A stretch of DNA of 64,000 bases from positions 3,596,001-3,660,000 of the forward strand of contig NC_014151.1 in assembly GCF_000092865.1 (NCBI RefSeq). Reading direction: 5' to 3'. Shown piece by piece: positions 13,195 through 64,000 of this stretch (its first letter is position 1; every line of letters starts with the position of its first letter). Position numbers and translations under genes: made by a program. The notes below the pieces were generated by a model that saw only the letters and a list, made by a program, of their open reading frames with translations, did no database searches and was not told where the DNA came from. This stretch comes from Cellulomonas flavigena DSM 20109. Lineage in GTDB: Bacteria > Actinomycetota > Actinomycetes > Actinomycetales > Cellulomonadaceae.

Positions 13195-13210
13195 GATCGG
13201 GGGCGGGCTG

Positions 13211-44500: not shown

Positions 44501-44666
44501 GCCGCTCAGCCGCGAGGAGCAGCAGCGGCAGCGGTTGCTGCGGACCGTGGGGGCGTACCGGATGGTCATCGGGCAGCCGCGGCAGGACGACCTGGTGCGG
44601 TACGTCGGGGAGGACGTGGAGTGGTTGCGGGTGGATCTGACGCCTCCGGGGCACAGGTTCAGCTGA
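41529..44666 (+). CDS. SNF2/HepA-like helicase
   Basis: The 1045-aa ATPase has DEVGLGKT (41-48) as Walker A, ILDEFQRF (Asp262, Glu263) as motif II, and LLLSATPYKMYT (about 294-305) as motif III. In the second RecA-like lobe are STSVGQEGLDFHTYSHAVVH and LEQREGRVHRYKGHAVRKN, the SNF2/HepA-type motif VI. A long insertion of about 450 residues separates the lobes. It is the motor of the DUF6361-PLD-helicase operon and overlaps the PLD gene by ATGA. A longer start at 41490 lies inside the PLD gene and is rejected. It converges on the YhaN-like gene with a 25-bp gap. Confidence 0.9.
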   Translation: MTPETERMLASLKDFQRATVDHVFRRLWLDDDQVKRFLVADEVGLGKTMVARGVIARTVEHVRTQGKRVDVVYICSNAQIARQNLSRLNVVNASEMRHADRLTLLPKVIRDLREQDVNFVSFTPGTSFNVGSSGGKGEERVLLYWMLATAWGTDVLRPRRWTRFFQGGMKLENFERDLRWFDRSSLDPEFCRAFGETVDAADGPGGGPLRTELEECVQDFNYLRCDPSYALSTRRYRLLGVLRRLVARAAVEHLDPDLVILDEFQRFKDLLDGSDDEGAQLAHAIFDHEDAKVLLLSATPYKMYTLPDEPEGDDHYRDFVRTTTFLAGEERARVVEGALRTMRETLVAGGDIARARDARDRVEHELRRVMCRTERLASTPDRDGMLVEKSLPQVALTADDLRGWRTFDGVGRAVDRHDVLEYWRSSPYPLNLMDRNGYQVRARFQAAAERQEPSLVAALDGAPGLLAWEDVRAYRRVDPGNAKLRGLFADVLDRGAWRLAWLPPSLPYYELAGAYAEPDLRSFTKRLVFSAWAVVPKAIAVLTSYEAERRTLSAAGDQLAYDDRPVTPPLQFRVAGERPAGMPALALLYPSLALARAGDPLEVARAEGAVPLPVERVRAVVAERVRALLGRLPEGEPTSERVDQGWYWAAPFLLDEALHGKDHAALRATMSRWGSVDEDHESRLAAHLRLALDVRAEDLGRRPDDLVDVLTSLAIAGPGVTSLRALARVAGGAAAIADPVVRDRAFHVAQGLRSLFNKPEIVALLRATEDETYWRTVLDHATDGCLQAVLDEYVHVLVESEGQQDAAPLDRVGVIAETIAEALSTRAAPHVVDDIQVVDGQVHVTDHRMSAHFAARFGRAQTDEKTVMRESTVRAAFNSPFRPFVLASTSVGQEGLDFHTYSHAVVHWNLPGNPVDLEQREGRVHRYKGHAVRKNVAVLHGEAALEDRDDPWGAVFEAAHAARGAGASDIEPYWVCTRPGGAVIERYVPALPLSREEQQRQRLLRTVGAYRMVIGQPRQDDLVRYVGEDVEWLRVDLTPPGHRFS

Positions 44667-47600: not shown

Positions 47601-47835
47601 ACACACGCCACTGATCGTCGTCCCAGGGCTTGTGGAGCTCAGCAAAGCGGCGCTCCTCACGGGTCGGCGCACCCTTGCCGCGTCGGCGTCCCGTCACAGC
47701 GGCGTACACAGCGGCGTGCCAAGAAGACTTCGCGGACTCGTTGACGCCCGTAACGACCGTCATCCCGGGGGCGAACCGAAGGTCGCCGGACTGCAGAGGA
47801 CCGAATGCGTGTGCAGTGACGGACTCAATATTCAC
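44692..47835 (-). CDS. YhaN/SbcC-like SMC-type ATPase with internal membrane segments
   Basis: The 1047-aa protein has an N-terminal ATPase half with Walker A GVNESAKSS (30-38), where the usual Gly before Lys is Ala, and VVNQAELLGVL downstream. Long coiled coils follow, with two membrane helices near 482-528 (LVATAAAAAVAAVTTAIALS, VTVALVLGALCIAAAVGAFV). The C-terminal half has the ABC signature LSIGTAEQ (about 950) and Walker B CPLLLDD (about 980). Membrane segments in the coiled coil are a mark of YhaN-type proteins of firmicutes. It starts with GTG one base after the stop of the YhaO-like gene, so the pair should act like Rad50 and Mre11 at the membrane. Confidence 0.87.
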   Translation of the reverse strand: MNIESVTAHAFGPLQSGDLRFAPGMTVVTGVNESAKSSWHAAVYAAVTGRRRGKGAPTREERRFAELHKPWDDDQWRVSAVLVLDDGRRIELAHDLNGKVDCRATDLALGTDVSAEIMFEGAPDASRYLGLDRKSFAAIAVVNQAELLGVLNAANGLQEHLQRAAATAGADATAAAALAALETFARDNVGLDRANSSKPLRAAKNALENARADLDAAFAEHARYLELTAVAETHRARADKAAQRTLAAQEKAAALELLVHALQVVAERQGDAARVDDVSKAAVTRRDALAQRVAKARSLSAASTDDAVPAGAPAAEAVARIVAAALARWSSVPDLRMPAGSTAADLAQQLDALPPPPDGDTQVAAAVRDAYQGWTRAVAVVTAHDGRRPPDPGTPSQDLEPAVEAGPSMLRQLAAQLGATGNGNSEQVQYLTDARDQARSEQAAAQASLADATARANAARAAFTTAMAAPPSTTTGRSRVPRYGLVATAAAAAVAAVTTAIALSNVTVALVLGALCIAAAVGAFVVARPEPRHPTSGAVNIPALSAAGHAAEEALASAQERLYAAVTEVASADAQLRAAAASSSAAAEVAARCAARSLPADPGALQQLAARAEQHLEAREAFFRWESESQREARTLAQAESGLLRALADRGVAVGATSTEDAFSAYERACAERAEQAARAARRPEVERALAAREAADRDAADVLAQRESALDALRAAVSVASVGVDPEADPEALRDALIQWQAHYDELLIATEARQRDLSQLDVVLDGSTLDELESSLMAAEEAVAEAAKASDAARRALQEAVVHGEELAADAGAPISAGVDAALSDLTRARQARAAAQEQEMELAAVAENAAGVAAERGRTLRSVAEAEECLVAAEAELARVSELSETLRLTSHFLTDAQEQVHRTIAPVLADTLSSWLPLVTGGRYTDATVNPATLEVKVCGPQRKWRNADRLSIGTAEQVYLLLRVALAQHLSTTGESCPLLLDDVTVQADAERTVGILDLLLALASDRQVILFAQGQEVAEWARVHLIDPRHSSVELTRVAVE

Positions 47836-47836
47836 G

Positions 47837-48943
47837 TCAGTGGACCTCCAGCTCGCTGGTGCGCCCGTCGAGTGCCCGCAGGCCTGTCACCAGGACACGG
47901 CGGCGTTGGTTCTCGTCAAGGTTGGTGGAAGCCTGGACGTCCCGCACGAACTGTCCCCGGACCGTCTGCTCGGCCGCAAGACTCACCAAGTCGTAGGTGA
48001 CCCCGATGCGTCCAAGGCGCGGCACGATGGCGTCCAGGCCCGAGCTGATCCCGACGAGGTCGCTCAGTCGGACATCGACTTCAGGAGCGACGTCACCGTG
48101 CAGCGTCACGCGCGCCACCCCGGTCAGACCTTGGAGTGCCGCTTCGGCCTTAGCGCAGATGTCCGAAGAAGAGGTCGCGCCAGTGACGTCGACGGATACG
48201 TCATGGACAGTGCTCGCCGCGACCGTGTGCCGCTCGCACATCACCGTTCCGTCAGGGGTGATCGTTGCCAGGATGGCACCGCGCGGCCCGGTCTCACCAA
48301 ACGTCAGGGGATCGGGGTTGCCGGGGTAGGTGTGGCGAGCGGCGTCTCGAGGGGTGTGGAAATGACCGACGAACGCATGATCGAGGCCGCTATGTTCGAT
48401 CTGTTCGGCGCTGAACGGCGCGTGCGGGACCTTGCCGCTCTCTTGGTAGAACAGCTGTGCACTCTCCGAACCGTGGAAGAGTGCGATGTTGACTCCGTTG
48501 CGATCAACCCTGAAGTCGTTCTCAAAGAATCCGTCAGTGTTGGCGGGGGCTCGGTGAGCAGCACCCCACAGAGTCACGCCCTCGATCAGGTCGACTGGAA
48601 CGAAGCGCGCCTCGGTGAACACGTGGACGTTCGGTGTCCAGTCGGCCATCCGATAGAGCGACGCGGGCCCGTACCAGTCGTGATTTCCTGGGGCGAGGTA
48701 GACGGCACGGTTGGAATCTGCAAAGGTCTGACGCAGAAAAGCCGTGGTGTCGGGGCTGAACCGCTCGTGCTCGTACAGGTCTCCGGCACACAGGATGGCG
48801 TCGACATCGTTCTCCTCGGCCAGGGACATGATCCGGGTCAGCGTGGTGCGCAACGCCATGCGGCGAGCGCGGGCAAGGCCGGGCGGCGCCCACTTGAACG
48901 GCGTGTCGAGATGGAGGTCCGAGAACACCAGCAGTTTCGTCAC
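47837..48943 (-). CDS. YhaO/SbcD-like metallophosphoesterase (Mre11-type nuclease)
   Basis: From the GTG at 48943 the protein has 368 residues with the complete metallophosphoesterase set: Asp9 and His11 (SDLHLD), GD at 54-55, GNHD at 86-89, His157 (LFHGSE) and GHFH at 193-196. The C-terminal 100 residues form a capping and partner-binding region (VDVTGATSSSDICAKAEAAL). It should be a Mn-dependent nuclease acting with the coupled YhaN-like ATPase on DNA ends. The start at 48967 lacks a ribosome site. The pair converges on the DUF6361-PLD-helicase operon and may extend that system. Confidence 0.9.
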   Translation of the reverse strand: MTKLLVFSDLHLDTPFKWAPPGLARARRMALRTTLTRIMSLAEENDVDAILCAGDLYEHERFSPDTTAFLRQTFADSNRAVYLAPGNHDWYGPASLYRMADWTPNVHVFTEARFVPVDLIEGVTLWGAAHRAPANTDGFFENDFRVDRNGVNIALFHGSESAQLFYQESGKVPHAPFSAEQIEHSGLDHAFVGHFHTPRDAARHTYPGNPDPLTFGETGPRGAILATITPDGTVMCERHTVAASTVHDVSVDVTGATSSSDICAKAEAALQGLTGVARVTLHGDVAPEVDVRLSDLVGISSGLDAIVPRLGRIGVTYDLVSLAAEQTVRGQFVRDVQASTNLDENQRRRVLVTGLRALDGRTSELEVH

Positions 48944-49193
48944 GACCCTGTCTCCCGTCGCTCGCACGGACGGTCGTGGGCCACCCGCGGGAGCGCAATG
49001 ATCTCAGTGCGCCTTGACATCGCTAGGTCTTTGGCCCCTTTCGGTGCGCTGATGAGCCTGTCTGCTGCGTCTGCAGACGTATTGCTGGCGCTCGCTATCA
49101 GACTCCTGGGCCGCTGCACGAGGTAGCTGCGCGAGGCGGTCGCGGTCATGGACCCCTTCCACGTCTGCCGGAGTTGCGACGAACAGCTCTAGG

Positions 49194-50312
49194 TGTTGCG
49201 TCTCATGAGGTTGGTGACACCGCGCGGGGTGTGAGCGAGGGGTAGGCCCGCCGGCGGCAGGATGGGAAGTGCGACCAACACATCCGCGCCGAGAGAGACC
49301 TACCCCTCGATGCCCCACGCTAACGCCCCGTTGACCCCTGCTGGCCGTCTTCGCCTGGTCCAGCGCTGTCAGTCCCGTCCGATCGCGCACGTCGCAGCCG
49401 AGGCCGGGATCTCCAGGCAGTGCCTGAGCAAGTGGAAGGCCCGCTACGAGCAGCTCGGCGAGGTCGGGCTGCTGGACCGTTCCAGCGCCCCGCACGCCAG
49501 CCCCACGCAGCTGCCGGCGGACGTGGTCGAGCAGATCGAACGTCTGCGGCGGGAGCACAAGTGGACCGCCCGTCAGATCCACCTCGAGCTGACCCGCACC
49601 GGCCACCGCGTCTCGCTTGCGACGATCTCGCGGTGGCTGGTCCGGCTCGGGATCAACCGGCGCCGGGACATCGACCCCGACGGGTCCACCAACCGCAGCA
49701 CCGGGCGGATCATCGCCCGCTACCCCGGGCACATGGTCCACCTGGACGTGAAGAAGGTCGGCCGGATCCCCGACGGCGGCGGGTGGCGCGCCCACGGGCG
49801 CGGATCCACGCAGGACAAGGCCGCGCAGCGCGCCAAGACCTCCGGCGCTCGGGCGGGCTACGTCTACCTGCACTCCGCGATCGACGGGTACTCCCGGCTG
49901 GCCTACACCGAGCACCTGCCCGACGAGAAGGCCGCCACCACGATCGGGTTCTTCCACCGCGCCAGGGCGTTCTTCGCCGCCCACGGCATCGGTCGGATCG
50001 TCCGCGTCGTGACGGACAACGGCGCGAACTACAAGGCGACCGCGTTCACCCGCACCGTGGTCGCGGTCGCCTCCCGGCACCAGCGCATCCGCCCGCACAC
50101 GCCGCGGCACAACGGCAAGGTCGAGCGCTACAACCGGATCCTGGCCGAGGAGCTGCTCTACGCCCGGATCTGGACCTGCGAGGCTGAACGCGCCGCTGCG
50201 ATCAAGATCTGGAACGTCCACTACAACTACCATCGCGCTCACACCGCCGTCGGCGACCGACCCCCGGCCTCACGCCTGCGCGCGGGCGTCACCAACGTCA
50301 TGAGCCAGAACA
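49194..50312 (+). mobile_element. IS481-family insertion sequence, copy B
   Basis: The 1119-bp element has the same TGTT...AACA ends as copy A and is flanked by the duplication TCTAGG (49188-49193, 50313-50318). It inserted downstream of nothing identifiable, between the YhaO-like gene start and the zinc-ribbon gene. Confidence 0.93.
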
Positions 50313-50317
50313 TCTAG
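49310..50317 (+). CDS. IS481-family transposase, copy B
   Basis: The 335-aa transposase is nearly the same as copy A, with the helix-turn-helix IAHVAAEAGISRQCLSKWKA, HLDVKKVG, DGYSRLAYTEHLPDE and RVVTDNGANYKA. Most differences are synonymous or conservative. The last residue is Ile here and Ser in copy A because the final codon and the TAG stop come from the different target duplications (TCTAGG and GCTAGG). Confidence 0.95.
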   Translation: MPHANAPLTPAGRLRLVQRCQSRPIAHVAAEAGISRQCLSKWKARYEQLGEVGLLDRSSAPHASPTQLPADVVEQIERLRREHKWTARQIHLELTRTGHRVSLATISRWLVRLGINRRRDIDPDGSTNRSTGRIIARYPGHMVHLDVKKVGRIPDGGGWRAHGRGSTQDKAAQRAKTSGARAGYVYLHSAIDGYSRLAYTEHLPDEKAATTIGFFHRARAFFAAHGIGRIVRVVTDNGANYKATAFTRTVVAVASRHQRIRPHTPRHNGKVERYNRILAEELLYARIWTCEAERAAAIKIWNVHYNYHRAHTAVGDRPPASRLRAGVTNVMSQNI

Positions 50318-50348
50318 GCGTTCAGAGCCGCGCAATTCGTCGGATGAA

Positions 50349-50453
50349 TTACTTCCGCACGATGGTGTCGCAGCTTGAGCACTTCAACTGGTTCGTGGTA
50401 TACGGCTGAAGCGTGTATCGCCCGCACACGGGGCACTCATGTCCCTTGGCCAC
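50349..50453 (-). CDS. 34-aa zinc-ribbon protein
   Basis: The GTG at 50453 has AGAGGAG five bases upstream. The frame encodes VAKGHECPVCGRYTLQPYTT then NQLKCSSCDTIVRK and ends in TAA, a rare stop here. Two CxxC pairs (CPVC, CSSC) make a minimal zinc ribbon, as in many very small actinobacterial proteins. An ATG five codons upstream (50468) is the alternative. Local base composition is lower in GC than the surroundings, which suggests transfer. Role unknown; nucleic-acid binding is possible. Confidence 0.72.
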   Translation of the reverse strand: MAKGHECPVCGRYTLQPYTTNQLKCSSCDTIVRK

Positions 50454-50710
50454 GGCGACTCCTCTCATTGGTACTGCCCGCGAGCGGTTCGCGTCCCGCC
50501 GACCGTAGCGTGGGCTGTGCCGAGGTCCGGGATTGATTGCATCAAAGTCACCCGGTTGACCTGCAGTTTCGCAACTAATGCCCCCGGGCGGTGGCCGACG
50601 TCAACGGACGAAGGGCCGCCTCGAAGTGGGAGGGCTGCGCCCTTCTCCGCCGCCTCGTAGCCGTTACCGTCGAGCCGCTGCACCGAGCCTGTCCTCAGGT
50701 GCCGTGGGCG

Positions 50711-50730
50711 CGGGCTCAGCGCTGAGCCCG
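50711..50730. repeat. 20-bp perfect palindrome
   Basis: CGGGCTCAGCGCTGAGCCCG is fully self-complementary. It lies in the 50454-50750 stretch, where no gene is seen, 20 bp before the ISL3-like left end. It could be a terminator stem without a loop or a protein-binding site. Confidence 0.5.
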
Positions 50731-50750
50731 TCAGCACTCGAAGCCAAACT

Positions 50751-50774
50751 GGCTCTTCCCAGTTGAGGGTGTAG
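50751..50774. repeat. left terminal repeat of an old ISL3-like element
   Basis: GGCTCTTCCCAGTTGAGGGT opens this 24-bp stretch and resembles ISL3-family ends (GGCTCTTC...). Its complement matches 54347-54370 at 19 of 24 positions, so these may be the two ends of the outer, older element. Confidence 0.5.
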
Positions 50775-50881
50775 CCGGCGGCCAGGCGGCGCGAGGGACG
50801 GGCGGCGCGTCGGTGCCCGGGTAGAGGTCGAGGTCTCCCGTGGATGGAAGTTCTCACACAGCCATCCAGGAAGACCTCGAC

Positions 50882-50999
50882 GTGCCTGACGCTACCTTCA
50901 CGACCCCTGACCTGACGACGTTCTGCCGCCTCGACGAGCTCGGTCTCGTGGTCGTGGGCCAGCACCTGGAAACTGACCGGGCGGTGCTCGCTTGCCGCG
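50882..50999 (+). pseudogene. ISL3-family transposase, N-terminal fragment
   Basis: A GTG opens PDATFTTPDLTTFCRLDELG followed by LVVVGQHLETDRAVLACRV. This is the start of ISL3 transposases, just before their zinc-binding cysteines. The gene is cut at 51000 by the IS3 element. The rest of the transposase does not reappear on the other side. Confidence 0.78.
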
Positions 51000-51157
51000 T
51001 GAATCGCCCCGGGTTCGGTGGAGGCTCTCAACCCTGGAGGATGAGAGTCATGGTGGCACCGAAGAAGTACAGCGATGAGCTGCGTGAGCGGGCCACGCGG
51101 ATGGCGTTGGACGCGATCGCGGGGTCTTGACCCCTGATGGTGGACACGCGGGTGGTT

Positions 51158-52057
51158 TCACGCGGCGAGCGTCAGGTTAGCCGCGTGGTGGGCGTTCTCG
51201 TAGTCGGTGGGGCTGAGGTAGCCGCAGGTGGAGTGCCGCCGGCGGGTGTTGTAGCGGGTGATCCAGGTGAACACCTCGTGGCGGGCGGTGGGCGAGTCGG
51301 GCCAGCCGTGCGCGCCGGCGAGGGTCTCGCGCTTGAGGGTGGCGTTGAAGGACTCGGCCATCGCGTTGTCCGCCGAGGTGCCCACGGCGCCCATCGAGCG
51401 CGACACGCCCAGGCGGGTGCACAGCTGCGCGTAGACCTTGGCTCCGTACTGGGCTCCGTGGTCGGTGTGCATCACGGCCCCGGCCAGGGTGCCGCGGGTC
51501 GCGGCGGCCGCGAGCAGCGCGTCGGTGACCAGGTCGGTGCGCATGTGGTCGGCGATGGACCAGCCGACCAGGCGCCGGGAGAAGCAGTCGATGACGGTGG
51601 CCAGGTAGAGGAACCCGTCGTCGCCGCAGGGCAGGTAGGTGATGTCCCCGACGTACTTGGCGTTCGGCTCGCTCGCGGTGAAGTCCCGCTCGAGCAGGTC
51701 CGGCACCAACGCGGCGCCGGGGTCGGGCACCGTGGTGCGCACGCGTCGTCGCAGCCGGATCCCCGCGATGCGGTGCTCGCGCATCACCCGGGCCACCCGC
51801 TTGTGGTTGACCCGCGCGTCGGGGGCGGCGCCGTCGTTGAGCTCGACGGTGATCCGCGGTGCCCCGCACGCACGATCCTGCACGTGCACCGCGCGGATAC
51901 GCGCGGCCAGCGCCTCGTCACCGGCCGCCCGCGCGGCGCGAGCCGGCGCGGCGGCCAGCCACTTGTAGAACGAGGACCGGGCCACACACAGCACCTGACA
52001 CAGCCGCTTCACCTCGAAGGTGTTGGAGTGCTCGGCGACGAACTGGAAGCGGCTCAC
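51158..52057 (-). CDS. IS3-family transposase orfB (element Y)
   Basis: The 299-aa integrase-type catalytic subunit shows YVGDITYLPCGDDGFLYLAT, VIDCFSRRLVGWS, VMHTDHGAQYGAKVYAQL and DNAMAESFNATLKRETL, supplying the DDE residues. It ends with RYNTRRRHSTCGYLSPTDYE. It overlaps orfA by 4 bp, as expected for the frameshift fusion of IS3 elements. The frame is intact and the element may be active. Confidence 0.94.
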   Translation of the reverse strand: MSRFQFVAEHSNTFEVKRLCQVLCVARSSFYKWLAAAPARAARAAGDEALAARIRAVHVQDRACGAPRITVELNDGAAPDARVNHKRVARVMREHRIAGIRLRRRVRTTVPDPGAALVPDLLERDFTASEPNAKYVGDITYLPCGDDGFLYLATVIDCFSRRLVGWSIADHMRTDLVTDALLAAAATRGTLAGAVMHTDHGAQYGAKVYAQLCTRLGVSRSMGAVGTSADNAMAESFNATLKRETLAGAHGWPDSPTARHEVFTWITRYNTRRRHSTCGYLSPTDYENAHHAANLTLAA

Positions 52058-52383
52058 CAGTTCGTCTCCCCGGCGAAATACTTCGCCGCCGCGCGCAGGA
52101 TCTCCCGCTCGGTGGCCAGCTTGCGCCGTTCGTCCTCCAGCTCGACGACCCGCGACCGCAGCCGTGCCAGCTCCTGCTCGGGCGTCTCGTCCGGCGGCGC
52201 GGACCTACCGGCCGGGCGGGACTGCCCGCGGATCGGCACCCCCGCGGCCTTGATCCACGCCGAGAGCGTGGAGTCCATGATCCCCAGGTCCGCCGCGATC
52301 CCCGCGACCGTCGCGCTCGGCGTCGTCCGGTACAGCTCGACCGCGTCACGGCGGAACTCCGCCGGATACGTCTTCCTTGCCAT
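52054..52383 (-). CDS. IS3-family transposase orfA (element Y)
   Basis: From ATG 52383 the 109-aa protein begins MARKTYPAEFRRDAVELYRT, a helix-turn-helix (TVAGIAADLGIMDSTLSAWI), then a coiled coil (ELARLRSRVVELEDERRKLA) ending at KYFAGETNW. It is the DNA-binding half of the element Y transposase. The longer start at 52434 has no support. Confidence 0.93.
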   Translation of the reverse strand: MARKTYPAEFRRDAVELYRTTPSATVAGIAADLGIMDSTLSAWIKAAGVPIRGQSRPAGRSAPPDETPEQELARLRSRVVELEDERRKLATEREILRAAAKYFAGETNW

Positions 52384-52704
52384 GAGCAGATCTTCTCGCT
52401 TCCTCCGGGCCAGGCCCGGGTTCAGCGTGTCCACCTCACGGGGTCAAGCCCCGCGATCGAGGGGGCAGCGGATGGGAGCGATCCGTCGGATCGCCGGTCA
52501 GCTCGACGTGCACCCCGAGGCGTTGCGCACCTGGGTCAAGCGGGCCGAGGTCGATGCCGGTGCCCGGGCGGGCACGACGAGCGAGGACGCCGCTCGGATC
52601 GCCGAGCTCGAGGCGCAGGTCCGGGACCTGAAGCGGGCGAACCACATCTTGAAGACGGCCTCGGCTTTCTTCGCGGCGGAGCTCGACCGCCCCTCCAGCA
52701 GGTA

Positions 52705-53667
52705 GTGGCCTACCTCGACGCGCACCGTCACCAGGTCGTCGAGGGACGCCAGCTCGGGGTCGAGCCGATCTGCGCGGTGCTCAAGGACACCGCCGCGAAG
52801 ATCGCTCCGAGCACGTACTACGCGGCCAAGACCAGGAAGCCCTCGGCGCGGGCGGTGCGTGACGCGCGCCTACTGCCGCTGGTCCGCAAGGTCCACGCCG
52901 ACAACCTGGGCGTCTACGGGGCGCGCAAGGTCTGGGCCGAGCTGAACCGCCAGGGCACGACGGTGGCCCGGTGCACGGTCGAACGGCTGATGACGGCCGA
53001 CGGGTTGCGCGGGATCGCCCGGGAGAAGACGACCCGCACGACGGTCAGTCACGGCGCGCAGAGCGAGCGGCCCGGTGACCTGGTCGAGCGGGAGTTCGTC
53101 GCCGATGCGCCGAACCGGTTGTGGGTCGCGGACATCACCTACATCCGCACGCACGCCGGCTGGACGTATGCCGCGTTCGTGCTCGACGTGTTCTCCCGCT
53201 ACGTCGTGGGCTGGCAGGTCTCCACGTCGCTGCGCACCGATCTGGCGCTGCACGCCCTGGACATGGGGTTGTGGGCCCGGCGGCGGGCCGGTCAAGACGT
53301 GACCGGGCTGACCCACCACTCGGACAGGGGCGTTCAGTACCGAGCGGTGCGCTACACCGAGCGCCTCGCCGAGGCGAACGCCGTCGCCTCGGTCGGGTCC
53401 AAGGGCGACTCCTACGACAACGCGATGGCCGAAGCGTTCAACTCGCTGTTCAAGGCCGAGTGCATCCGCAACCCCACGATGCGCCCGACCGGCGGCTGGA
53501 AGACCATCACCGATGTCGAGCTCGCCGTCGCGGAGTACGTCGACTGGTTCAACCACCGACGCCTGCACGGCGAGATCGGCCTCGTCCCACCCGCCGAGCA
53601 CGAGCAGCACCACTGGCAGCACTACGCTGCCCACAACCCGGCCGAACTCGAGGCCGTAGCCACGTAA
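52705..53667 (+). CDS. IS3-family transposase orfB (element X)
   Basis: GTG 52705 overlaps the orfA stop. The 320-aa integrase subunit contains GVYGARKVWAELNRQGTTVA, LWVADITYIRTHAGWTYAAF, LDVFSRYVVGW, LTHHSDRGVQYRAV and YDNAMAEAFNSLFKAECI, giving a complete DDE set. It is intact, but since orfA of the same element is split, it can act only if supplied in trans. Confidence 0.93.
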   Translation: MAYLDAHRHQVVEGRQLGVEPICAVLKDTAAKIAPSTYYAAKTRKPSARAVRDARLLPLVRKVHADNLGVYGARKVWAELNRQGTTVARCTVERLMTADGLRGIAREKTTRTTVSHGAQSERPGDLVEREFVADAPNRLWVADITYIRTHAGWTYAAFVLDVFSRYVVGWQVSTSLRTDLALHALDMGLWARRRAGQDVTGLTHHSDRGVQYRAVRYTERLAEANAVASVGSKGDSYDNAMAEAFNSLFKAECIRNPTMRPTGGWKTITDVELAVAEYVDWFNHRRLHGEIGLVPPAEHEQHHWQHYAAHNPAELEAVAT

Positions 53668-53697
53668 CCGAGCCTCCACCAAACCCGGGGCGATTCA

Positions 53698-54323
53698 ACC
53701 CCGCGCTGCGGGCCGAGCCTGTCTGGAACCCGGCCGCTCACACCGGCTCGTGGCGGGCGATCTGGGCGTACTCCGCCAAGAGAGCCGCCAGGGACGGCAA
53801 GACCCTGACCGCGCAGGAGAACCGCGCCCGCGCGGTCATCAACGGCGAGTCCGCCGCGCGCAAGCCGCGATTCGTCAAGGCCTCGACCAGCGGGTTCACC
53901 CTCGACGAGGCCGCCCTGGCACGCGCGCGGCGCCTGGTGGGTCTCAAGGGCTATGTCACGAACCTGCCCGCGACCGTGATGCCCGCACCCGAGGTGATCG
54001 CCAGCTACCACGAGCTGTGGAACGTCGAGCAGTCCTTCCGGATGTCCAAGTCGGACCTTGCAGCACGGCCGTTGTTCGCCCGCCGCCGTGACGCGATCGA
54101 GGCGCACTTGACCATCGTGTTCACCGCGCTGGCCGTCTCGCGCACCCTCCAGCAGCGATCCGGCCTCGCCCTTCGCCGGATCCTGCGGACCCTGCGGCCG
54201 CTGCGCTCCGCGACGATCGCGATCAACGGCGCCGTCCAGACCTTACCGCCCGAACTCGACGCCGACGAATGCGCGCTCGTCGACGCACTCCTGCGGGGCC
54301 GCGTCACGCACCAAAGGAAATGA
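53698..54323 (+). pseudogene. IS1634-type transposase, C-terminal fragment
   Basis: The frame lacks a start and begins at the edge of element X. It reads WRAIWAYSAKRAARDGKTLT, then GLKGYVTNLPATVMPAPEVI, YHELWNVEQSFRMSKSDLAA and DAIEAHLTIVFTALAVSRTL, which is the C-terminal third of IS1634/IS4-like transposases (LWxVEQSFRMSKxDL). The N-terminal part is absent from the window. Confidence 0.85.
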
Positions 54324-55411: not shown

Positions 55412-56545
55412 TCAACGGGCGAGCGGACTTGTGTCGGCTCCTCGTGCTACCCGGCCAGCGGCCGCGCTCTTGAGCAGACGCTGGAAGTCCGGCAAAGCAC
55501 TGGCCCCCATCCAGAACAAGGGATTGGCGTCGGCGCGCGTCATGTCAGCCGCGTAGTCGGGGAATTCTCTGTAGAAGCTGTCCCAGCAGTCCGGACCGAT
55601 GCCACGCGCAAGGGAGACCGGGTCGCGGAGCGGAAGACCGCAGACCCCACAGGCTCCGCGCACGGGATTGACGAATCCCTTGAATCCGCGGCCGGCGAAA
55701 GCCTGACGGTACTTGGCCTCATCATGTACGCGAAGAAGTCTGTGCCGGGCCTCAGCACCATCGGCGAGATCGACCCGGATCGCGAGCTGCTGCAGATCGC
55801 GGAGCTCGAGTCCGTCGTGCACGAGTCCGAGTGCCGCGCGGACTGCACTGAAGGCGCGATCGCTGCGCCACGTCGCGATGGCGGGGATCTGTGGTGTGAC
55901 GGTCAGGTAGTCGGGTCGGTCCCAGGCGCAGGGGTGCTCGCGCGGCCAGACGTGCCAACCTCGGCGTCGCAGCAGTTCTGCCAGCTGACGGTTGTCAGGC
56001 ACGCACCATGCGACGAAACAGGGGTAGTCGTCGATGATCACGCGCTGGATCGAGAGGCTCAGCCCAGCGGGTAGGCAGGTGAGTTCGAGTCGATCGACCA
56101 ACGAGTCCTCGAGAGTCGCGGGTGCCCGCGAAGAGAGGTCGCCCCAGGACTCCACCGGGGGTTTGCGCCCGAGCGGGAAGGGGTGCAAGCGGAAACCGCT
56201 CGGCTTGAACCCGGGCTGGATGTCCTGCTGGCGCAGAAGCCGCTGACGCTCCGCGGCACCGAGCGCCGGCGTCTTGACGCGTGGCGCGGCTGGACTGCCT
56301 GAACCGGCGCCGGCGTCCTGCGCCTTGCCGGCGGCGGCCGGGAACCAGATCGGCGGGGAATCGCCGACCCTACGGAAGAGGTCGGTGCGGCGGTACAGGA
56401 CGCTGTTCATCTCCGTGGCGTCGGCGTCGAAGCCACGGGTGTGCAGCTCTCGGAGAAGCGCCCGCTTGTCCATGCCTGCCCGCTCGGTCAGGCAGGCCAT
56501 GAGAGCGTCGGTCAGCCGCGCTCTTCGGTCGCTCCTGTTCGCCAT
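55412..56545 (-). CDS. DUF6011-like zinc-finger protein with N-terminal winged helix
   Basis: From ATG 56545 the protein has 377 residues. The first 70 resemble a winged helix (MDKRALLRELHTRGFDADAT, EMNSVLYRRTDLFRRVGD). The middle has a strand-rich domain (RVIIDDYPCFVAWCVPDNRQ, GWHVWPREHPCAW). Near 320-345 comes CGVCGLPLRDPVSLARGIGP plus DC, the C-x2-C...GIGPxC pattern of DUF6011-type zinc fingers. It is on the same strand as the Hsp70-NYN operon, 260 bp downstream of it, and could belong to that locus. Function unknown. Confidence 0.75.
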   Translation of the reverse strand: MANRSDRRARLTDALMACLTERAGMDKRALLRELHTRGFDADATEMNSVLYRRTDLFRRVGDSPPIWFPAAAGKAQDAGAGSGSPAAPRVKTPALGAAERQRLLRQQDIQPGFKPSGFRLHPFPLGRKPPVESWGDLSSRAPATLEDSLVDRLELTCLPAGLSLSIQRVIIDDYPCFVAWCVPDNRQLAELLRRRGWHVWPREHPCAWDRPDYLTVTPQIPAIATWRSDRAFSAVRAALGLVHDGLELRDLQQLAIRVDLADGAEARHRLLRVHDEAKYRQAFAGRGFKGFVNPVRGACGVCGLPLRDPVSLARGIGPDCWDSFYREFPDYAADMTRADANPLFWMGASALPDFQRLLKSAAAGRVARGADTSPLAR

Positions 56546-56805
56546 GCGCGTGTCCTTCGTCTGGCTTCTCTCAGGGGTAAGCCCTTCCACGGCGGCAGCC
56601 CGCCACGCTGTCTCGACAGACCGCTGCGGAGACCGCTCGTCTGACGCGCGCCTACCTGTCCATCGGCCGGACGCGGGTCAGTGTTGATCGATCGCTGGGG
56701 TGACGCCGCTCCGTATGGGCCGCACTCGATGGGGTGGGGCAATCGGTGGCAGAGATACGCGCCGCCCCGTGTCTCGCTCTCCCCCTTCGAGACAGCCTTC
56801 ATCAT

Positions 56806-59049
56806 TCACTTGCTGTCGAGCGGCGACATGTAGTAGTTCTCGCTCACCGGCCCGAAGGCCTCGGTCGCGCGCCGGCGAGGACCCGCCAGAGCCTCCTGGG
56901 ACTTCCACCCCGAGTCCTGCCAGCCGGCGGGCAGCGCGTGAGCAACCGCACCTGCGGGCTTTGTCACTACCTGCGCTGCGCTCGTCCCGGCGGGAGGTTT
57001 GCGGTCGAGGAAGATCCAGTGCGTTCCGACCAGCGTCGCACCGAGCATCCGGTGACCGGACCGCAGCCACGGGTGCGCGTCCTGGAATTCGCGGTAGCTG
57101 TCGTTCGAGACGACTCTCCCCTCCGTGATCTCGGCAATCGCAAGGACGAGTGCGTCACCCGCGCCGATCGTCCCGGCGGGCGGCTGGAGCCAGCGCCCGG
57201 ACTGGACCGCATTCTCGACGAGTGGCTTCTCGGACTGTTCCACCTGGTGGCGAAGGTTCGCGTCGACGACGACCTTGATCTCCGCGGACGGGAACGTCGC
57301 GAGCAAGGCGTCCAGCGCGTCCGACAGCGCAGCGATCGAGGGCTTCTCTCCGGCTGCCCGGTCGCGACCCGACCACGCCACGTTCGACCCGTCGACGACG
57401 AGGACGACGGGAGCGACGTCCGAGGGCGGCGAGTACGTCGGCGGCCGAGGCACAGGCCGTGTGGGAACCCGCCGCGACGACACGGGGGATGTCTCCGCAG
57501 GTGTCGGCGGCGGGGTCGAGGTAGGCGCACTCGACGCGGCCACGGCGCCGAAGACGGCCTCCAGCTCAGCCCGGATCGCCTCCTTCTCCTTCGCGCGGTC
57601 GGACTGCTTCTCGTTCTCCTCGAACACGTCGATGACGTCGTCGAAGAGCACGACACCGGTCTTGACGATCTCGGCCCGGACGGACACCCGCCCGTCCTCG
57701 CCGTACGTGAAGTCGAGCCGGAAGCGAGCGTCGGCCTGGGGCGTGGGCCGTGGGTACGGGATCCTCAGCTTCTTCAGCATCTGGTTGAACGGGTCGCTCA
57801 GCGCACGGTCGGGGTCACCCTCCCACACTTCGACGTCGACCTCGGAGACGAGAGGACGTCGAGGCACGTACGTCCGGCCGTCGCTGATCGGCAGCGGGGA
57901 GTTCCGCGGGATGATCGTGCTGAACGAGGCACCGTGCTCGTCTCGGACCTTCGTCCCCAGCGCGTTGGCCGTGACGACGCAGATCGTGTCGTCGACGTCC
58001 TGCCGAAGTGCGGCAGCGGCGAACGCCGCGCCCATGCCGACCGCCGTCATGGGGTCGAGGAGCTCCTGCGCGACCGGTTCCTGCCCGAGCAGCTCGGTGA
58101 GGGTCCGCCGCGCGATCGGCATTCGGCTCGAGCCACCCACCATGATGACGGCATCCACCGTGTCAGGATCGAGCCGAAGGTCGCTCAGGACCTCGATGAC
58201 GGGCTCCATCGACCCGTCCACGAGGTCCTTCACCAGATGCTCGAACTCGGTGCGCTCGAGGTCGACGACCTCGTCACCGGCCGGAGACAGGATGGTGACG
58301 ACCTCTTCGGTCGAGAGCTGGATCTTGGCGCGCTCGACCTCGAGCCGGAACTGCCGGGCGTGGTGCGCCGTCCACGACGGATGGTTCTTGAACCGCGAAC
58401 GGACGGCCTGACGCAGTGCAGCATCGATGTCGACGCCGCCGAGCTCGGTGCGCCCGCTGGCCGCGCGCTCGATGAGCACACCGTCCTCGTAGTCGAGCAC
58501 CGTCGCGTCGACGGTGCCTCCGCCCCAGTCGTAGACGAGGAAGCGTCCGTTCTCCCGGATGAGGTCGACGTAGGCCATCGCCGCGGCGGTCGGCTCGTTG
58601 ATGAGCGACAGCGTGCGGATGCCCGCCAGGTGCGCCGCTTCCCTCGTGCGGAACCGGGCCTGCCCGGTGGCCTTGGCGGGCACCGTCACCACGGCCTCGT
58701 CGAGCTCGGCACCGGCCCGCCGCATGCCCTCACGGATGGCCCGGAACATCAGCGTGGCGACGTGCCCGCTCGTGTATCGCCTGCTTCCGACAGTGACGTA
58801 GTGGTGCCCGTTCAGGAGTCGCTTGATCGCGTCCGCCCGCTCGTCGGCGAGGAGCTTCGCCCGCCATCCGAACATCGCCTCGCCCGTTGTCTCGCTGGTA
58901 CCGAAGACGGAGGGGAAGACCTGCTCGCCGCCGAAGCCGTACCAGTCGGCGCTGACGTTGGCGCTGTCGAATGGCACCACGTACGACCCGTCGGGTTGCC
59001 AGCGGGCGACTGCGCAGTTGGAGGTGCCGAAGTCGATCCCGTATGTCAC
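56806..59049 (-). CDS. Hsp70 chaperone fused to a Regnase-like NYN ribonuclease domain
   Basis: The 747-aa protein begins with an Hsp70 ATPase: phosphate 1 YGIDFGTSNCAVARW (3-17), phosphate 2 VYDWGGGTVDATVLDYEDG (about 195-213), and adenosine motif VIMVGGSSRMPIARR (about 300-315). A reduced substrate-binding region follows up to about 500, then a Pro/Ser/Thr-rich linker. Residues about 545-680 are a NYN domain of the ZC3H12/N4BP1 kind: VVLVVDGSNVAWSGRD, IKVVVDANLRHQVEQ, AGDALVLAIAEITEGRVVSN and DSYREF. The acidic residues of that fold are present. A further 70 residues end in ENYYMSPLDSK. I know of no described prokaryotic system with this fusion. It overlaps the GrpE-like gene (ATGA). Confidence 0.88.
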   Translation of the reverse strand: MTYGIDFGTSNCAVARWQPDGSYVVPFDSANVSADWYGFGGEQVFPSVFGTSETTGEAMFGWRAKLLADERADAIKRLLNGHHYVTVGSRRYTSGHVATLMFRAIREGMRRAGAELDEAVVTVPAKATGQARFRTREAAHLAGIRTLSLINEPTAAAMAYVDLIRENGRFLVYDWGGGTVDATVLDYEDGVLIERAASGRTELGGVDIDAALRQAVRSRFKNHPSWTAHHARQFRLEVERAKIQLSTEEVVTILSPAGDEVVDLERTEFEHLVKDLVDGSMEPVIEVLSDLRLDPDTVDAVIMVGGSSRMPIARRTLTELLGQEPVAQELLDPMTAVGMGAAFAAAALRQDVDDTICVVTANALGTKVRDEHGASFSTIIPRNSPLPISDGRTYVPRRPLVSEVDVEVWEGDPDRALSDPFNQMLKKLRIPYPRPTPQADARFRLDFTYGEDGRVSVRAEIVKTGVVLFDDVIDVFEENEKQSDRAKEKEAIRAELEAVFGAVAASSAPTSTPPPTPAETSPVSSRRVPTRPVPRPPTYSPPSDVAPVVLVVDGSNVAWSGRDRAAGEKPSIAALSDALDALLATFPSAEIKVVVDANLRHQVEQSEKPLVENAVQSGRWLQPPAGTIGAGDALVLAIAEITEGRVVSNDSYREFQDAHPWLRSGHRMLGATLVGTHWIFLDRKPPAGTSAAQVVTKPAGAVAHALPAGWQDSGWKSQEALAGPRRRATEAFGPVSENYYMSPLDSK

Positions 59050-59960
59050 TGCGTCTCCTCATCATCGGTCTTCACGTCGTCCGCCCGGGCTGCGGTGCCC
59101 GGCTGGACGAGCCGTCCTGTGTGGCCGTCCACGTAGGCCGGCTCGACGACCTCCCACTTCCCCTCCGCCCCGACACCCGGGAAGAAGGCCGTGTCCTCGA
59201 TCGACGTGACGACGCGCACGTGGGTCTCCCGCAGGAACTGCACGATCATGTGCCGCAGGACCTCGACGCTCTGCGCACGCCGGGCCGCCTGGTGAAGCCG
59301 GACGACCATGGCCTGCTGCTGCTGGGCCACGGCGGCGAGCGCAAGATCGGTGTGCGAGCGCAGGTCGGGCGCGGCGCGTAGTTGCGAGATGGTGTCTCGC
59401 AGCTCCCGAATCAGTAGCTCGAGTTCTGTGGGGTCCCCGTCGGGCAGCGTCTCGGACGCCTGCCGAGCGGTGTCGGGCGTGAGCTGCGGAGCCCTGTCCT
59501 CGACGTGCGCCACTGCCTCGGCGCCGCCCACTACGCCGGGCGTTGCGGGCGCGGCTTCAGGCTTCGGCTTCGCTCGCCCTCGGCGCTTCGGGGCGGGAGG
59601 ACGCAGCTCGGCGCCCGGATCGGCAGGCGTCTCCCGTCGCGTCACCTCCTCGCGACGGCCGGGGCGGGTCTCGCTGGTCTTTCGTGAACCGACCGGCTCG
59701 TGCGGCAGGGGCACACCCTTGCTCGGACTCGAACGCCGCCGAGGCCTGGCGGCGTTCTGCAGCGCGCCCGGTGCCGCGTCGTCGTAGACCGTCGTCCCGG
59801 CCGACTCGATCTCGGGACGCTCCCCATCCTGCCGGGAGCCCGCGGTGCGGGAACGTCTCGGGGACGCCGAGCCGCGCGCTGCTCGGGATCCCTTTCCCGA
59901 GGCCCGGGGACGCGTCTCATCGTCAGCCGTCGTGTTCCTCTTGATGTCACCCTCGCGCAT
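59046..59960 (-). CDS. GrpE-like protein with long disordered N-terminus
   Basis: From ATG 59960 (AGGAACTGC upstream) the protein has 304 residues. The first 160 are basic, proline-rich and low in complexity (SASPRRSRTAGSRQDGERPE). Residues about 185-245 form a helix/coiled coil (ELELLIRELRDTISQLRAAP, LAAVAQQQQAMVVRLHQAAR). The end, VRVVTSIEDTAFFPGVGAEG then KWEVVEPAYVDGHTGRLVQP, imitates the C-terminal beta domain of GrpE (EVLQxGYxLxGRxLRPA). A nucleotide-exchange role for the adjacent Hsp70-NYN protein is a natural inference. It overlaps both neighbours. Confidence 0.7.
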   Translation of the reverse strand: MREGDIKRNTTADDETRPRASGKGSRAARGSASPRRSRTAGSRQDGERPEIESAGTTVYDDAAPGALQNAARPRRRSSPSKGVPLPHEPVGSRKTSETRPGRREEVTRRETPADPGAELRPPAPKRRGRAKPKPEAAPATPGVVGGAEAVAHVEDRAPQLTPDTARQASETLPDGDPTELELLIRELRDTISQLRAAPDLRSHTDLALAAVAQQQQAMVVRLHQAARRAQSVEVLRHMIVQFLRETHVRVVTSIEDTAFFPGVGAEGKWEVVEPAYVDGHTGRLVQPGTAARADDVKTDDEETQ

Positions 59961-61635
59961 CATGCAGTTCCTGCCACAGCTCGGTCGGTCGCGCCTCGCG
60001 GAGCGCGGTGGAGATGGCTTCTCGCCAGACACGCCGGAGCGACTCCCGGACGCTCTCGACGTCCGGAGGCGGCGTGCGCCGGGGCATCGGTGACGCCTCG
60101 GGGAACAGCACTCCTCGACGTGCAGGGACGTAGGAGTCCGCCGCGAGCGGAACGATGAAGTGACGCCGCTCTTCGTCTCCCACCGCCAACCGCTGCCTGG
60201 CTCGGTTGACCCGGATTCGACGGGCGGCGTCGGTCTTGGTCTCGCGCTGCAGTGCGACCCAGCGCGCATCCCACGGCCGCTCCACGCTTGACTCCGACCC
60301 CGCGGGTTCATCGAGCCCCAGCACGACCCAAGGGCTCTCGAAGTCCTCGAGTGCCGACCTCTTGTCGCCGTCGCGCATGCGGTTCAGCGTGGTCTCGGCC
60401 ACGTCGATGTTCCGCGCCGTCGCTGCGGACCGCCCGGGGGCGCGCAGCTCTCGTAGCAGGGCCCGCGCCGAATTGACGTCCCCGGAGAGAACCGCGCAGT
60501 ACAAGGCGAGGTTGTGGACCTCCACGGCCATCCTGCCCCCGCTCGGCAGTGACGGGACGTCACGCACGCAGGCCGCGGCCGCCGCCAGGTCGTCGGAGTA
60601 GAGCATTGCTCGGGCGCGGGCAAGACGACGCCACACGTCGAACGTCAGGTGCCCGGTTCCCGCGAGGTCGTCACCGAGTGCGGCATCGAGAAGACGCCAC
60701 AGGGACGGATCGGCGCCCTGCGTCTCGACGAACTGCCGCGGAGACCGGAGCACGTCCAGGATTTCCACCAGCTCAGGAAGCGCCGACGGGACGAGCGCGG
60801 CCGCACCAACGTCGCCCTCGAAGAGCCGGTGCCGCAGAACCCAGGGGTCGTCCTCGTGGAGATCACGCGGGAGCTCACCGGCGACGAGCTGTCGCCGTCG
60901 GATCTCCTCGTGCCACCCGAGCTGGACGAGCGCGTCGTGGTCGACGAGACGTGGCCGGGTCCGTGCCTTGAGATAGTTGCCCTCGATCGCCGAGACCTCC
61001 GGTCGGATCGTCGTGACGAGGGCCGGGTCCTGGTCGAGCGCGGAGTCCACCATGGCGAGGTCGGCTGAGCGAGCCATGGCCCGGAGGTCCTCGGGCTGAG
61101 GTCGCAGGCCTCCGAGGACGGCAGCGGCACCCCGTGCGATGCGCCAGGAGTCCGGTCCGTCCACCGCGGCTGTCATGTCGCGGTCGACGGCGGCACGAAG
61201 CAGCCTCAGACGCTCCGGCGCCAACGACACCAGTTCGCGCTCCACAAGTAAGAGGAGCACCTGTCCGATCCCGTCGCCTGCCTCGAGCGCCGAGCGGAGG
61301 AAGGCGTCCCAGTCGTCCCGTCGCCAGAGTGCGAGCCCGGGCGCGGCCGCGGTGAGGCCCCCGACCGTCGCGTCCAACTCCCGTGCAAGCGCCTCGAGAC
61401 GCTCGGTGTGCGCCACCCGCTGTGCGAGCCCACGGACCTGCCCCGCCACGTGACGCAGCAGGACTGCCCGCTGGGCACGCTCGGCCTGCGACATCGCCAT
61501 GAGCACGGACCTGTGCGCGGCGACCTCACGGCGCTCTCGCTGCGCCTGCCGCCGCTCCCGCTCCGCCGCGATGAGGGCGGCACGACGTTGTGCGGGCGTC
61601 AGAGGGAAGGGTGACTCCTGGAACGAGGTCGACAT
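59947..61635 (-). CDS. large helical protein of the Hsp70-NYN operon, unknown function
   Basis: The 562-aa protein opens with a basic coiled coil (AQRRAALIAAERERRQAQRE). The body is made of helical hairpins, such as LALWRRDDWDAFLRSALEAG, DVWRRLARARAMLYSDDLAA and NLALYCAVLSGDVNSARALL, resembling TPR/HEAT-like scaffolds. Near 460-480 a basic stretch ETKTDAARRIRVNRARQRLA precedes ERRHFIVPLAADSYVPARRG. There is no J-domain HPD motif, so it is not an ordinary DnaJ. It is the first gene of the operon and overlaps the GrpE-like start by 14 bp. It may be a scaffold or sensor for the chaperone-nuclease; that is inference. Confidence 0.75.
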   Translation of the reverse strand: MSTSFQESPFPLTPAQRRAALIAAERERRQAQRERREVAAHRSVLMAMSQAERAQRAVLLRHVAGQVRGLAQRVAHTERLEALARELDATVGGLTAAAPGLALWRRDDWDAFLRSALEAGDGIGQVLLLLVERELVSLAPERLRLLRAAVDRDMTAAVDGPDSWRIARGAAAVLGGLRPQPEDLRAMARSADLAMVDSALDQDPALVTTIRPEVSAIEGNYLKARTRPRLVDHDALVQLGWHEEIRRRQLVAGELPRDLHEDDPWVLRHRLFEGDVGAAALVPSALPELVEILDVLRSPRQFVETQGADPSLWRLLDAALGDDLAGTGHLTFDVWRRLARARAMLYSDDLAAAAACVRDVPSLPSGGRMAVEVHNLALYCAVLSGDVNSARALLRELRAPGRSAATARNIDVAETTLNRMRDGDKRSALEDFESPWVVLGLDEPAGSESSVERPWDARWVALQRETKTDAARRIRVNRARQRLAVGDEERRHFIVPLAADSYVPARRGVLFPEASPMPRRTPPPDVESVRESLRRVWREAISTALREARPTELWQELHDARG

Positions 61636-61924: not shown

Positions 61925-62077
61925 GGTCGTGCGTGGCTGGCGCCCGCCGCGTGTGCGAGTGGTCGATCCAGGGCAATTGCCAACTATCGGGCCGTGACGT
62001 GCGGTCTTGCCTCGACCTCCTGCTTCCCGATGGCACACTCGACCCCAGACAGGCGAGCGCAAAGGGGGCCCTGGGCT

Positions 62078-64000
62078 GTGGACGTGTTCAGCATCCGCGA
62101 TCGCCTGATCGCGGACTATCGCGCATTCACCTCGGGCGCCGTCGAGGTCCGCGACCGTCGGATCGCGGAGCACGTCTCCTCGCTCCTCGATGGCGGTGCG
62201 CAGTGGCCGGACCCGTGGCTCAGCCTGAATCCCAGCTTCGAGACAGGCGGCACCGTCAGCGACCTGGTGTCCGAGGGGGTGCTGCACCCGGAGAACGGGC
62301 GGATCTTCCGCGTCAAGAAGCACCCTGCTGACCCGGGGTCGTCGACGCTGACGCTGCACCGCCACCAGCGCGAGGCCATCGACGCGGCGAGGACGGGCGG
62401 CTCGTACGCCCTGACGACAGGCACGGGGTCGGGGAAGTCACTGGCCTACATCGTGCCGATCGTCGACGCGGTGCTACGCGAGCGAGAGTCCGCCGGCGCC
62501 CGCGTCCCTGGCGTCAAGGCGATCGTCGTCTACCCGATGAACGCGTTGGCGAACTCGCAGACGCTCGAGCTCGAGAAGTTCCTGCGCTACGGGTACCCCG
62601 CGGGCCAGGAGCCGGTCACCTTCGCCCGCTACACCGGCCAGGAGCGGGACGACCGCCGCCGCGAGATCCTCGCGAACCCGCCTGACATCCTGCTGACCAA
62701 CTACGTGATGCTCGAGCTCGTGCTCACGCGTCCGGACGAGCGGACCCACCTGATCCGCGCGGCCCGCGACCTGCGCTTCCTGGTCCTCGACGAGCTCCAC
62801 ACCTACCGCGGACGCCAGGGGGCCGACGTCGCGCTCCTCGTGCGCAGGCTCCGCGACGCCTGCGCGTCAAGCAACCTCCAGGTGATCGGTACGTCGGCAA
62901 CGATGGCGTCCGGTGGCTCGGTCGCCGAGCAGAGGGCGACGGTGGCGGACGTCGCAACCCGCTTGTTCGGATCGGAGGTGACGCCCGAGCGAGTGATCGG
63001 CGAGTCCCTGACGCGTGCGACGTCCGACAGCCGTGTCGATACGGACGCACTGCTGCGCTCGGTGCGCGCCGCAGGCACGCTGGCTGACCTCACGTACGAG
63101 CAGCTCGCGGCCGATCCCTTGTCCCGATGGGTCGAGACGACCTTCGGCCTGGACACCGAACCGGAGAGCGGCCGTCTGGTGCGCCGCACACCGACGACGG
63201 TCAGCGTCGCGGCACGCACCCTCGCAGAGCTGACCGGCGCGGATGAACCGGCCGCGGCGGAGGCCATCCGATCCGTCCTGCTCATCGGCTCGAACACCCG
63301 CCACCCGGTCACCGGCCGCCCGCTCTTCGCGTTCCGCCTGCACCAGTTCCTGTCCAAGGGCGACACGGTCTACGTCTCGCTGGAGCCGGAGGACACCCGG
63401 TACATCACCAGCACCTACCAGCTCCGGGTGCCGGGCGACGCGAGCAAGGCGCTGCTGCCGCTGGGGTTCTGCCGCGAGTGCGGGCAGGAGTACCTCGTCG
63501 TCGCCAAGACTGCGGGCGGCCGCGAGGCGTTCGTCCCGCGCCAGGACGCGGACGCGTCGGGCGGCGACGCGGTCACGGGGTACCTGTACGTGTCCTCCGA
63601 CCTGCCGTGGCCGGCGAACCCGGTGGTCGAGAACCGGCTGCCCGACCACTGGCTGACGACGGACCCGTCGGGGAGCACCGAGGTGCTCGCGACGAAGGAG
63701 AAGTACCTGCCGACGGAGGTGTGGATCGCCCCGGACGGCAGTGTCACCGCACCGCACAGCGGCCTGCGGGCGTGGTTTGTCTCGACCCCGTTCGCGTTCT
63801 GCATGCGGTGCCGTGTGTCCTACGAGCAGGTGCGCGGCAACGACTACGCGAAGCTCGCGACGCTGGACCGCGAGGGCCGGTCGTCGGCGGTCACCGTGGT
63901 GAGCGCTAGCATCGTCCGCTCGCTCAAGCAGCTCCCGGCGTCCGAGCTGCCGGCCGATGCGCGCAAGCTGCTGACGTTCGTCGACAACCGGCAGGACGCG
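62078..64000 (+). CDS. DEAD/DEAH-box helicase of the DUF1998-associated type, 5' part
   Basis: The first 641 residues run off the right edge. GTG 62078 follows AAAGGGGGCC; GTG 62084 is an alternative. Visible motifs are NPSFETGGTVSDLVSEGVLH, the Q-motif-like LHRHQREAIDAA, Walker A LTTGTGSGKSLAY, motif Ib region VYPMNALANSQ, motif II LVLDELHTYRGRQGAD, and motif III GTSATM. A CxxC pair (GFCRECGQEY) and FCMRCRVSYEQV follow, as in helicases that carry DUF1998-like zinc regions (YprA, DrmA or DruE-like). Related helicases drive DISARM and Druantia defence. It diverges from the Hsp70-NYN operon. Confidence 0.85.
   Translation, partial: MDVFSIRDRLIADYRAFTSGAVEVRDRRIAEHVSSLLDGGAQWPDPWLSLNPSFETGGTVSDLVSEGVLHPENGRIFRVKKHPADPGSSTLTLHRHQREAIDAARTGGSYALTTGTGSGKSLAYIVPIVDAVLRERESAGARVPGVKAIVVYPMNALANSQTLELEKFLRYGYPAGQEPVTFARYTGQERDDRRREILANPPDILLTNYVMLELVLTRPDERTHLIRAARDLRFLVLDELHTYRGRQGADVALLVRRLRDACASSNLQVIGTSATMASGGSVAEQRATVADVATRLFGSEVTPERVIGESLTRATSDSRVDTDALLRSVRAAGTLADLTYEQLAADPLSRWVETTFGLDTEPESGRLVRRTPTTVSVAARTLAELTGADEPAAAEAIRSVLLIGSNTRHPVTGRPLFAFRLHQFLSKGDTVYVSLEPEDTRYITSTYQLRVPGDASKALLPLGFCRECGQEYLVVAKTAGGREAFVPRQDADASGGDAVTGYLYVSSDLPWPANPVVENRLPDHWLTTDPSGSTEVLATKEKYLPTEVWIAPDGSVTAPHSGLRAWFVSTPFAFCMRCRVSYEQVRGNDYAKLATLDREGRSSAVTVVSASIVRSLKQLPASELPADARKLLTFVDNRQDA

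Follow-up and report, generated by a model that had tools for sequence, protein, structure and literature searches.

An Hsp70-NYN fusion and two candidate co-chaperone-like partners form a conserved actinobacterial operon found near YprA-family helicase genes

We analysed a 64,000-nucleotide stretch (hereafter the window) of the genome of Cellulomonas flavigena DSM 20109 (contig NC_014151.1, positions 3,596,001 to 3,660,000) and describe here three co-directional genes on its minus strand (56806-61635), referred to as the trio. They encode, in order, a helical protein, a middle protein with a GrpE-like part, and an Hsp70 joined to a NYN domain (Table 1). A first-pass annotation, made from the letters of the sequence, had proposed three overlapping genes at this place, and all three open reading frames (ORFs) are indeed present, intact and on the minus strand. 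The middle gene starts at an ATG at either 59963 or 59960 (305 amino acids (aa) when counted from 59963); it overlaps the helical gene by 17 bp and the Hsp70-NYN gene by 4 bp. The next gene on this strand, immediately after the trio, encodes a 392-aa protein with a DUF6011 motif (55412-56590); no link between it and the trio was seen at other loci.

Table 1. Coordinates within the window of the trio genes, the parts of their proteins and the adjacent helicase gene
Feature	Position	Strand	Remarks
Helical protein gene	59947-61635	-	ATG start, 562 aa; first trio gene; found in 29/29 loci
J-like stretch of helical protein, residues about 434-488	60172-60336	-	No HPD; profile-profile comparison
Middle gene, GrpE-like	59046-59963	-	Found in 29/29 loci; profile-profile match to GrpE
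GrpE-like part of middle protein, residues about 230-292	59088-59276	-	Profile and structure matches
Hsp70-NYN fusion gene	56806-59049	-	GTG start, 747 aa; PF00012 and PF11977 above cut-offs; fusion in 18 loci
Hsp70 part, residues 1-467	57649-59049	-	Nucleotide-binding domain and beta part of substrate-binding domain; ATPase positions invariant in 28/28
Proline-rich linker, residues 468-549	57403-57648	-	Read in translation
NYN (Zc3h12a-type) domain, residues 550-679	57013-57402	-	Acidic residues D553, D632, D650
YprA/DruE-like helicase gene	61994-64000	+	PADLOC models; ORF runs past the window to 1762 aa, start approximate

The last gene of the trio had been annotated as an Hsp70 joined to a NYN domain, and the fusion is real, with both parts passing their Pfam cut-offs. 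The N-terminal part matches PF00012 over residues 77-467 (E=5e-59, 200.5 bits, cut-off 20.6), and the C-terminal part matches PF11977, RNase_Zc3h12a, over residues 550-679 (E=3.9e-7, 30.4 bits, cut-off 23). A chance fusion or a frameshift was ruled out because the fusion recurs in 18 loci. The helical lid of the substrate-binding domain is unmatched, since the PF00012 match stops at profile position 491 of 599 and the linker and the NYN domain come next. Ten positions, which we take from DnaK numbering to be the nucleotide-site residues of Hsp70, are invariant in 28 of 28 trio Hsp70s. A comparison of the NYN region with the PDB listed 11 chains at E<=10, of which 10 were KHNYN or ZC3H12A-C, each a weak match on its own (E 0.02-1.7). 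Across the 18 NYN domains of the family, D553 and D632 are kept in all and D650 in 17, the remaining one (L097) having a G; where the aligned human proteins carry a DD pair, the Hsp70-NYN family has G/A-D. The match to a nuclease profile and the retention of the acidic site in most copies were points on which the first-pass annotation had let its reading depend, and with an acidic site that looks intact the NYN domain is likely an RNA-cutting enzyme. The C-terminal end of the fusion (FGPVSxNYYMSPLDSK) is alike in the window and in a second genome, G061, and is absent from three more distant aligned copies. Besides the fusion, the genome encodes a single Hsp70, its DnaK, and its Pfam matches to two DnaJ proteins and one GrpE all lie outside the trio operon.

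GrpE-type exchange factors serve Hsp70, and a GrpE-like end had been proposed for the middle protein. Family searches did not recover it: the window protein has no Pfam or NCBIfam match, and PF01025 (GrpE) was matched neither by the window copy at E<=1 nor by four homologues at E<=10. Profile-profile comparison with GrpE, on the other hand, supports the proposal (P 3.2e-5, reached by 0 of 200 shuffles), and the GrpE chain 1dkg_B gives the longest alignment of the middle protein, 96 residues, among the 50 structure matches listed. The helical protein likewise has no Pfam match, and its profile-profile comparison with the J domain gave P 1.7e-4 and a probability of 49%, again with 0 of 200 shuffles reaching it. 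The J and GrpE references were drawn from genomes of one phylum, and the cross and reversed controls of both comparisons stayed close to background. The HPD motif is absent from all 27 copies that align there, those of two distant loci (L098 and L099) not aligning. These comparisons support, without proving, that the middle protein is GrpE-like and that the helical protein is a degenerate J-like protein that has lost its HPD motif. The earlier term "helical scaffold" was a fair description of the latter that overlooked the J-like stretch, and the J-like label fits better.

The helical, middle and Hsp70 genes stand in the same order on one strand at all 29 loci surveyed, the window included, within one actinobacterial class; homologues keep their partner genes and do not occur only as stand-alone Hsp70s, another point on which the first-pass annotation had let its reading depend. 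Except for the window and G061, the loci were located via the helical protein, a route by which Hsp70-NYN genes lacking the helical gene would escape, and five of the 29 loci supplied the sequences for the profiles with which the trio genes were annotated. By the family profile, 18 loci have the NYN domain and 10 (L084-L091, L098 and L099) do not; L078, cut at a contig end, was excluded from the NYN and Hsp70 counts. Pfam models detect HSP70 in 28 of these 28 Hsp70s and RNase_Zc3h12a in 17. On the Hsp70 tree the NYN label requires three changes, with which a single origin of the NYN domain is possibly compatible, and the NYN-less clade linked to Druantia genes adjoins two NYN-bearing rows with moderate support (84/87). 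The two distant trios of L098 and L099, both with an Hsp70 lacking NYN, have a bigger first protein (TPR-bearing in L099) and lie near vWA genes, accompanied in L099 by PP2C, and are possibly linked to phosphatase/vWA conflict systems.

The presence of the trio is sporadic. In the class, 5 of 374 genomes, among them that of the window, matched a helical-protein profile made from two sequences. Of the four further genomes, three had the three genes, and G971 (E 3.9e-5, on a 7.6-kb contig) had no trio in its gene calls. With a profile of five sequences, matches were obtained in 17 of 257 genomes of the family of G1114 and in 11 of 200 of the family of G916; one match in the latter family, G1473 (E 3.2e-12), was left outside the 29 loci. 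Searches with the NYN domain as query gave two matches among 200 genomes of the family, namely the window's own and that of G061 (58% identity over the query), whose fusion is the same locus as in Flavimobilis marinus DSM 19083 and whose flank holds the three genes in order. Four of 347 genomes matched in the order sample (the window's own and three weak matches, E 4e-5 to 9e-4), and 30 of 396 in the phylum sample (the window's own, two weak matches and 27 others). The 27 others (L009-L035; about 39-46% identity) are the closest wider NYN relatives and were read as stand-alone proteins without Hsp70; a broad Hsp70-NYN family detectable from the NYN domain alone was therefore rejected. Many of these proteins also have a conserved second region, read as S1-like, plus lysine-alanine-rich tails.

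The first-pass annotation had further placed the trio in a defence setting, which is borne out by the DruE/DruF, ARMADA-type and other defence-model genes found nearby. By model matches and similarity, the YprA/DruE-type helicases beside the trio fall into three kinds of setting, namely Druantia-type, ARMADA type I-like and a DruE-like operon. The window helicase, called DUF1998-type in the first-pass annotation and YprA/DruE-like by PADLOC models, heads an ARMADA type I-like set. Next come genes for a DpdE/DrmD/BrxH-like helicase, a DrmMI/PglX-like methyltransferase, an AAA_5 protein read as McrB-like and a 398-aa protein that we read as McrC-like but that matched no model. This set is divergent from the trio in the window, whereas in G1341 the three ARMADA-type genes, which share 52, 54 and 49% identity with their window counterparts, lead into an NYN-bearing trio on one strand. 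All eight NYN-less loci L084-L091 have a DruE-like helicase and a DruF-like gene according to similarity clusters (at L085, the PADLOC scores are 2188 bits for DruE4 and 340 bits for DruF4); their DruE, 75-98% identical to that of L085, adjoins the helical gene. In the DruE-like operon of L046, a DruE1/DruE3-like helicase (605 and 603 bits) begins 28 bp downstream of the Hsp70-NYN gene; relatives of it lie 57 and 33 bp downstream of the trio in L092 and L095 (68 and 87% identical) and 3.9 kb off in L097 (55%). The trios of L046, L092 and L095 are sandwiched, inside a larger gene set, between this helicase and a conserved 1105-1108-aa protein encoded upstream (11180-14497, 11047-14373 and 5616-8936, respectively), whose L046 copy has no Pfam or PADLOC match. 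The three helicase classes share 29-35% mutual identity over their best 319-497 residues.

The DruE model matched in 20 of the 28 trio genomes counted (that of L078 lying outside), and merging the pieces by hand gave 30 helicase genes. Fourteen of these lie within about 12 kb of a trio, where random placement expects 0.12. Other trio neighbours with defence-model matches are NsnA (433 bits, L044), DrmMI (L082), AbiU (L045), a ThsA-type SIR2 protein (L036), a type IIG enzyme (L097) and an LmuB/mad3-type ATPase (L080); several tested trio neighbours matched no defence model.

We favour the reading that the trio is a dedicated Hsp70 machine that serves YprA-family helicase immunity as an accessory or an effector module, and we give it about an even chance, the RNase activity, the chaperone control and the defence phenotype being what we infer from the comparisons above. 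The absence of a YprA/DruE-type helicase from the region read at 15 of the 29 trios speaks against an obligatory partnership of trio and helicase, and the 14 linked helicase genes are not 14 independent events but about five settings, since the eight Druantia-type loci are closely related.

It is possible, though on balance unlikely, that the trio serves chiefly as a chaperone that assembles or remodels the helicase complex (for instance to load or recycle YprA/DruE with its partners), with the NYN domain a lineage-specific RNA-processing or RNA-binding add-on. The lack of NYN at every one of the eight Druantia-linked loci, at which DruE stands right beside the trio, and the retention of the Hsp70 ATPase positions in every copy would suit such a chaperone; the trios without a helicase nearby would not, nor would the retention of a NYN domain with an intact-looking acidic site in 18 of 28 Hsp70s. 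We think it improbable that the NYN RNase is toxic to its own cell and is kept silent by its partners until phage attack or client overload sets it free, in the manner of toxin-antitoxin-like abortive defence. Chaperone-controlled toxins do exist, a SecB-type three-gene system being given in the part of PMC7159879 consulted, and the RNase of the trio comes from the last gene of the operon. Here, however, the NYN domain is fused to the chaperone itself, trios without NYN persist, and the partners show no antitoxin-like family match. It is very improbable that the trio is simply a set of stress chaperones that has an RNA-turnover domain and stands beside defence genes by chance. In favour of this view, Hsp70, GrpE and J proteins belong to the stress proteins, and the closest wider NYN relatives are stand-alone proteins of other actinobacteria; against it stand the linkage to DruE/DruF, ARMADA-type, NsnA and further defence-model genes, the excess of helicase genes beside the trio and the sporadic presence of the trio.

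If the trio is an accessory or effector module of helicase immunity, a client that infection produces or exposes, be it a phage protein or the helicase complex itself, would be engaged by the J-like protein or by the substrate-binding domain of Hsp70, and ATP hydrolysis together with exchange assisted by the GrpE-like protein would alter the state of Hsp70. The tethered NYN domain would then be brought to RNA, or released to cut it, and RNA cleavage, whether of phage transcripts or as cell shut-down, would supplement defence at the DNA level. Because 10 of 28 Hsp70s of the same operon lack NYN, the trio has a role independent of the NYN RNase; the NYN-less form in the Druantia-type operons indicates that what all trios share is chaperone work, perhaps for sensing or assembly, with an RNase output in other lineages. 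The first-pass annotation had likewise suggested that chaperone cycling could turn on an RNase in response to foreign protein or RNA, an interpretation that is partly supported. Tentatively, and with less confidence than in the module itself, we propose that the trio is a portable sensor-effector, in which infection-made clients would load a private Hsp70 machine whose ATP cycle gates the NYN domain, and that several YprA-helicase systems (Druantia-type, ARMADA type I and the DruE-like operon) share it, adding protein sensing and RNA cutting to their action on DNA. If true, an Hsp70-nuclease fusion with its own co-chaperone-like partners, linked to three types of helicase-based defence, would couple the sensing of protein state directly to the destruction of RNA, and it would raise the hypothesis of a missing component in Druantia-type and ARMADA loci of actinobacteria.

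Elsewhere in the window, about 12 kb from the trio, there is a complete-looking Zac set on the plus strand (38528-44666), with PADLOC scores of 430 bits for ZacA, 537 bits for ZacB and 1188 bits for ZacC. It is followed on the minus strand (44692-48967) by genes for a 1047-aa protein with a weak match to a mad3-type ATPase and a 376-aa protein that we take for a metallophosphoesterase; the two may form an SbcCD-like pair. Transposase-like genes were noted at 35363-36370 and, between the Zac genes and the trio, at 49262-54323; two copies of one family among them (35363-36370 and 49262-50317) are near-identical. The plus-strand gene at 6588-10274 encodes a protein of 1228 aa, which matches an MkoA-type model in part (108 bits).

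Among known systems, ARMADA type I is described in the part of its preprint consulted (Bell et al., 2025; PMC12458937) as a YprA helicase, a BrxHII-like helicase and a PglX-like methyltransferase. The window neighbours show the same order with DruE, DpdE/DrmD/BrxH and DrmMI/PglX matches, an assignment made by layout; the terms Hsp70, NYN, GrpE, DnaK and chaperone are absent from the main text of that preprint. Druantia is approached by the eight related trios that adjoin DruE- and DruF-like genes, but their Hsp70s lack NYN, and no DruF-like gene was found among the window flanking proteins scanned. CnuD of CoCoNuT, a defence system predicted to target RNA and frequently located near Druantia, is Hsp70-like and is described, in the part of PMC11090510 consulted, as having a degenerate Walker A-like motif with little ATP hydrolysis expected and as fused to or beside McrB/McrC parts. 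Compared with CnuD as so described, the trio Hsp70 keeps its ATPase positions in every copy, is fused to NYN and has GrpE-like and J-like partners; the main text of PMC11090510 lacks the terms GrpE, DnaJ and NYN. The GAP1-N2 GTPase conflict systems, in the corresponding part of PMC7159879, resemble the trio in combining HSP70, GrpE and a DnaJ or TPR protein, and NYN does not appear in the main text of that paper. Membership of the trio in these systems was rejected: nine GAP1-N2 matches occur in 7 of the 28 trio genomes, none near the trio.

The Regnase/ZC3H12 and KHNYN RNases belong to the same Pfam family as the trio NYN domain and have their acidic motifs in the same places, whereas the trio domain is bacterial, is fused to Hsp70 and has G or A for one aspartate of the DD pair. 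Phage sensing by bNACHT25 requires host DnaJ, according to the part of PMC12169576 consulted; there the co-chaperone is the housekeeping DnaJ of the host, whereas the trio would be a private set. No description of the Hsp70-NYN fusion or of the trio was found among the open-access literature matches listed, a scope outside which supplements and closed-access papers fall. Collectively, these comparisons are best read as placing the trio among a known kind of system, the chaperone-bearing conflict systems, with the Hsp70-NYN effector fusion and the link to YprA helicases as its apparently new features.

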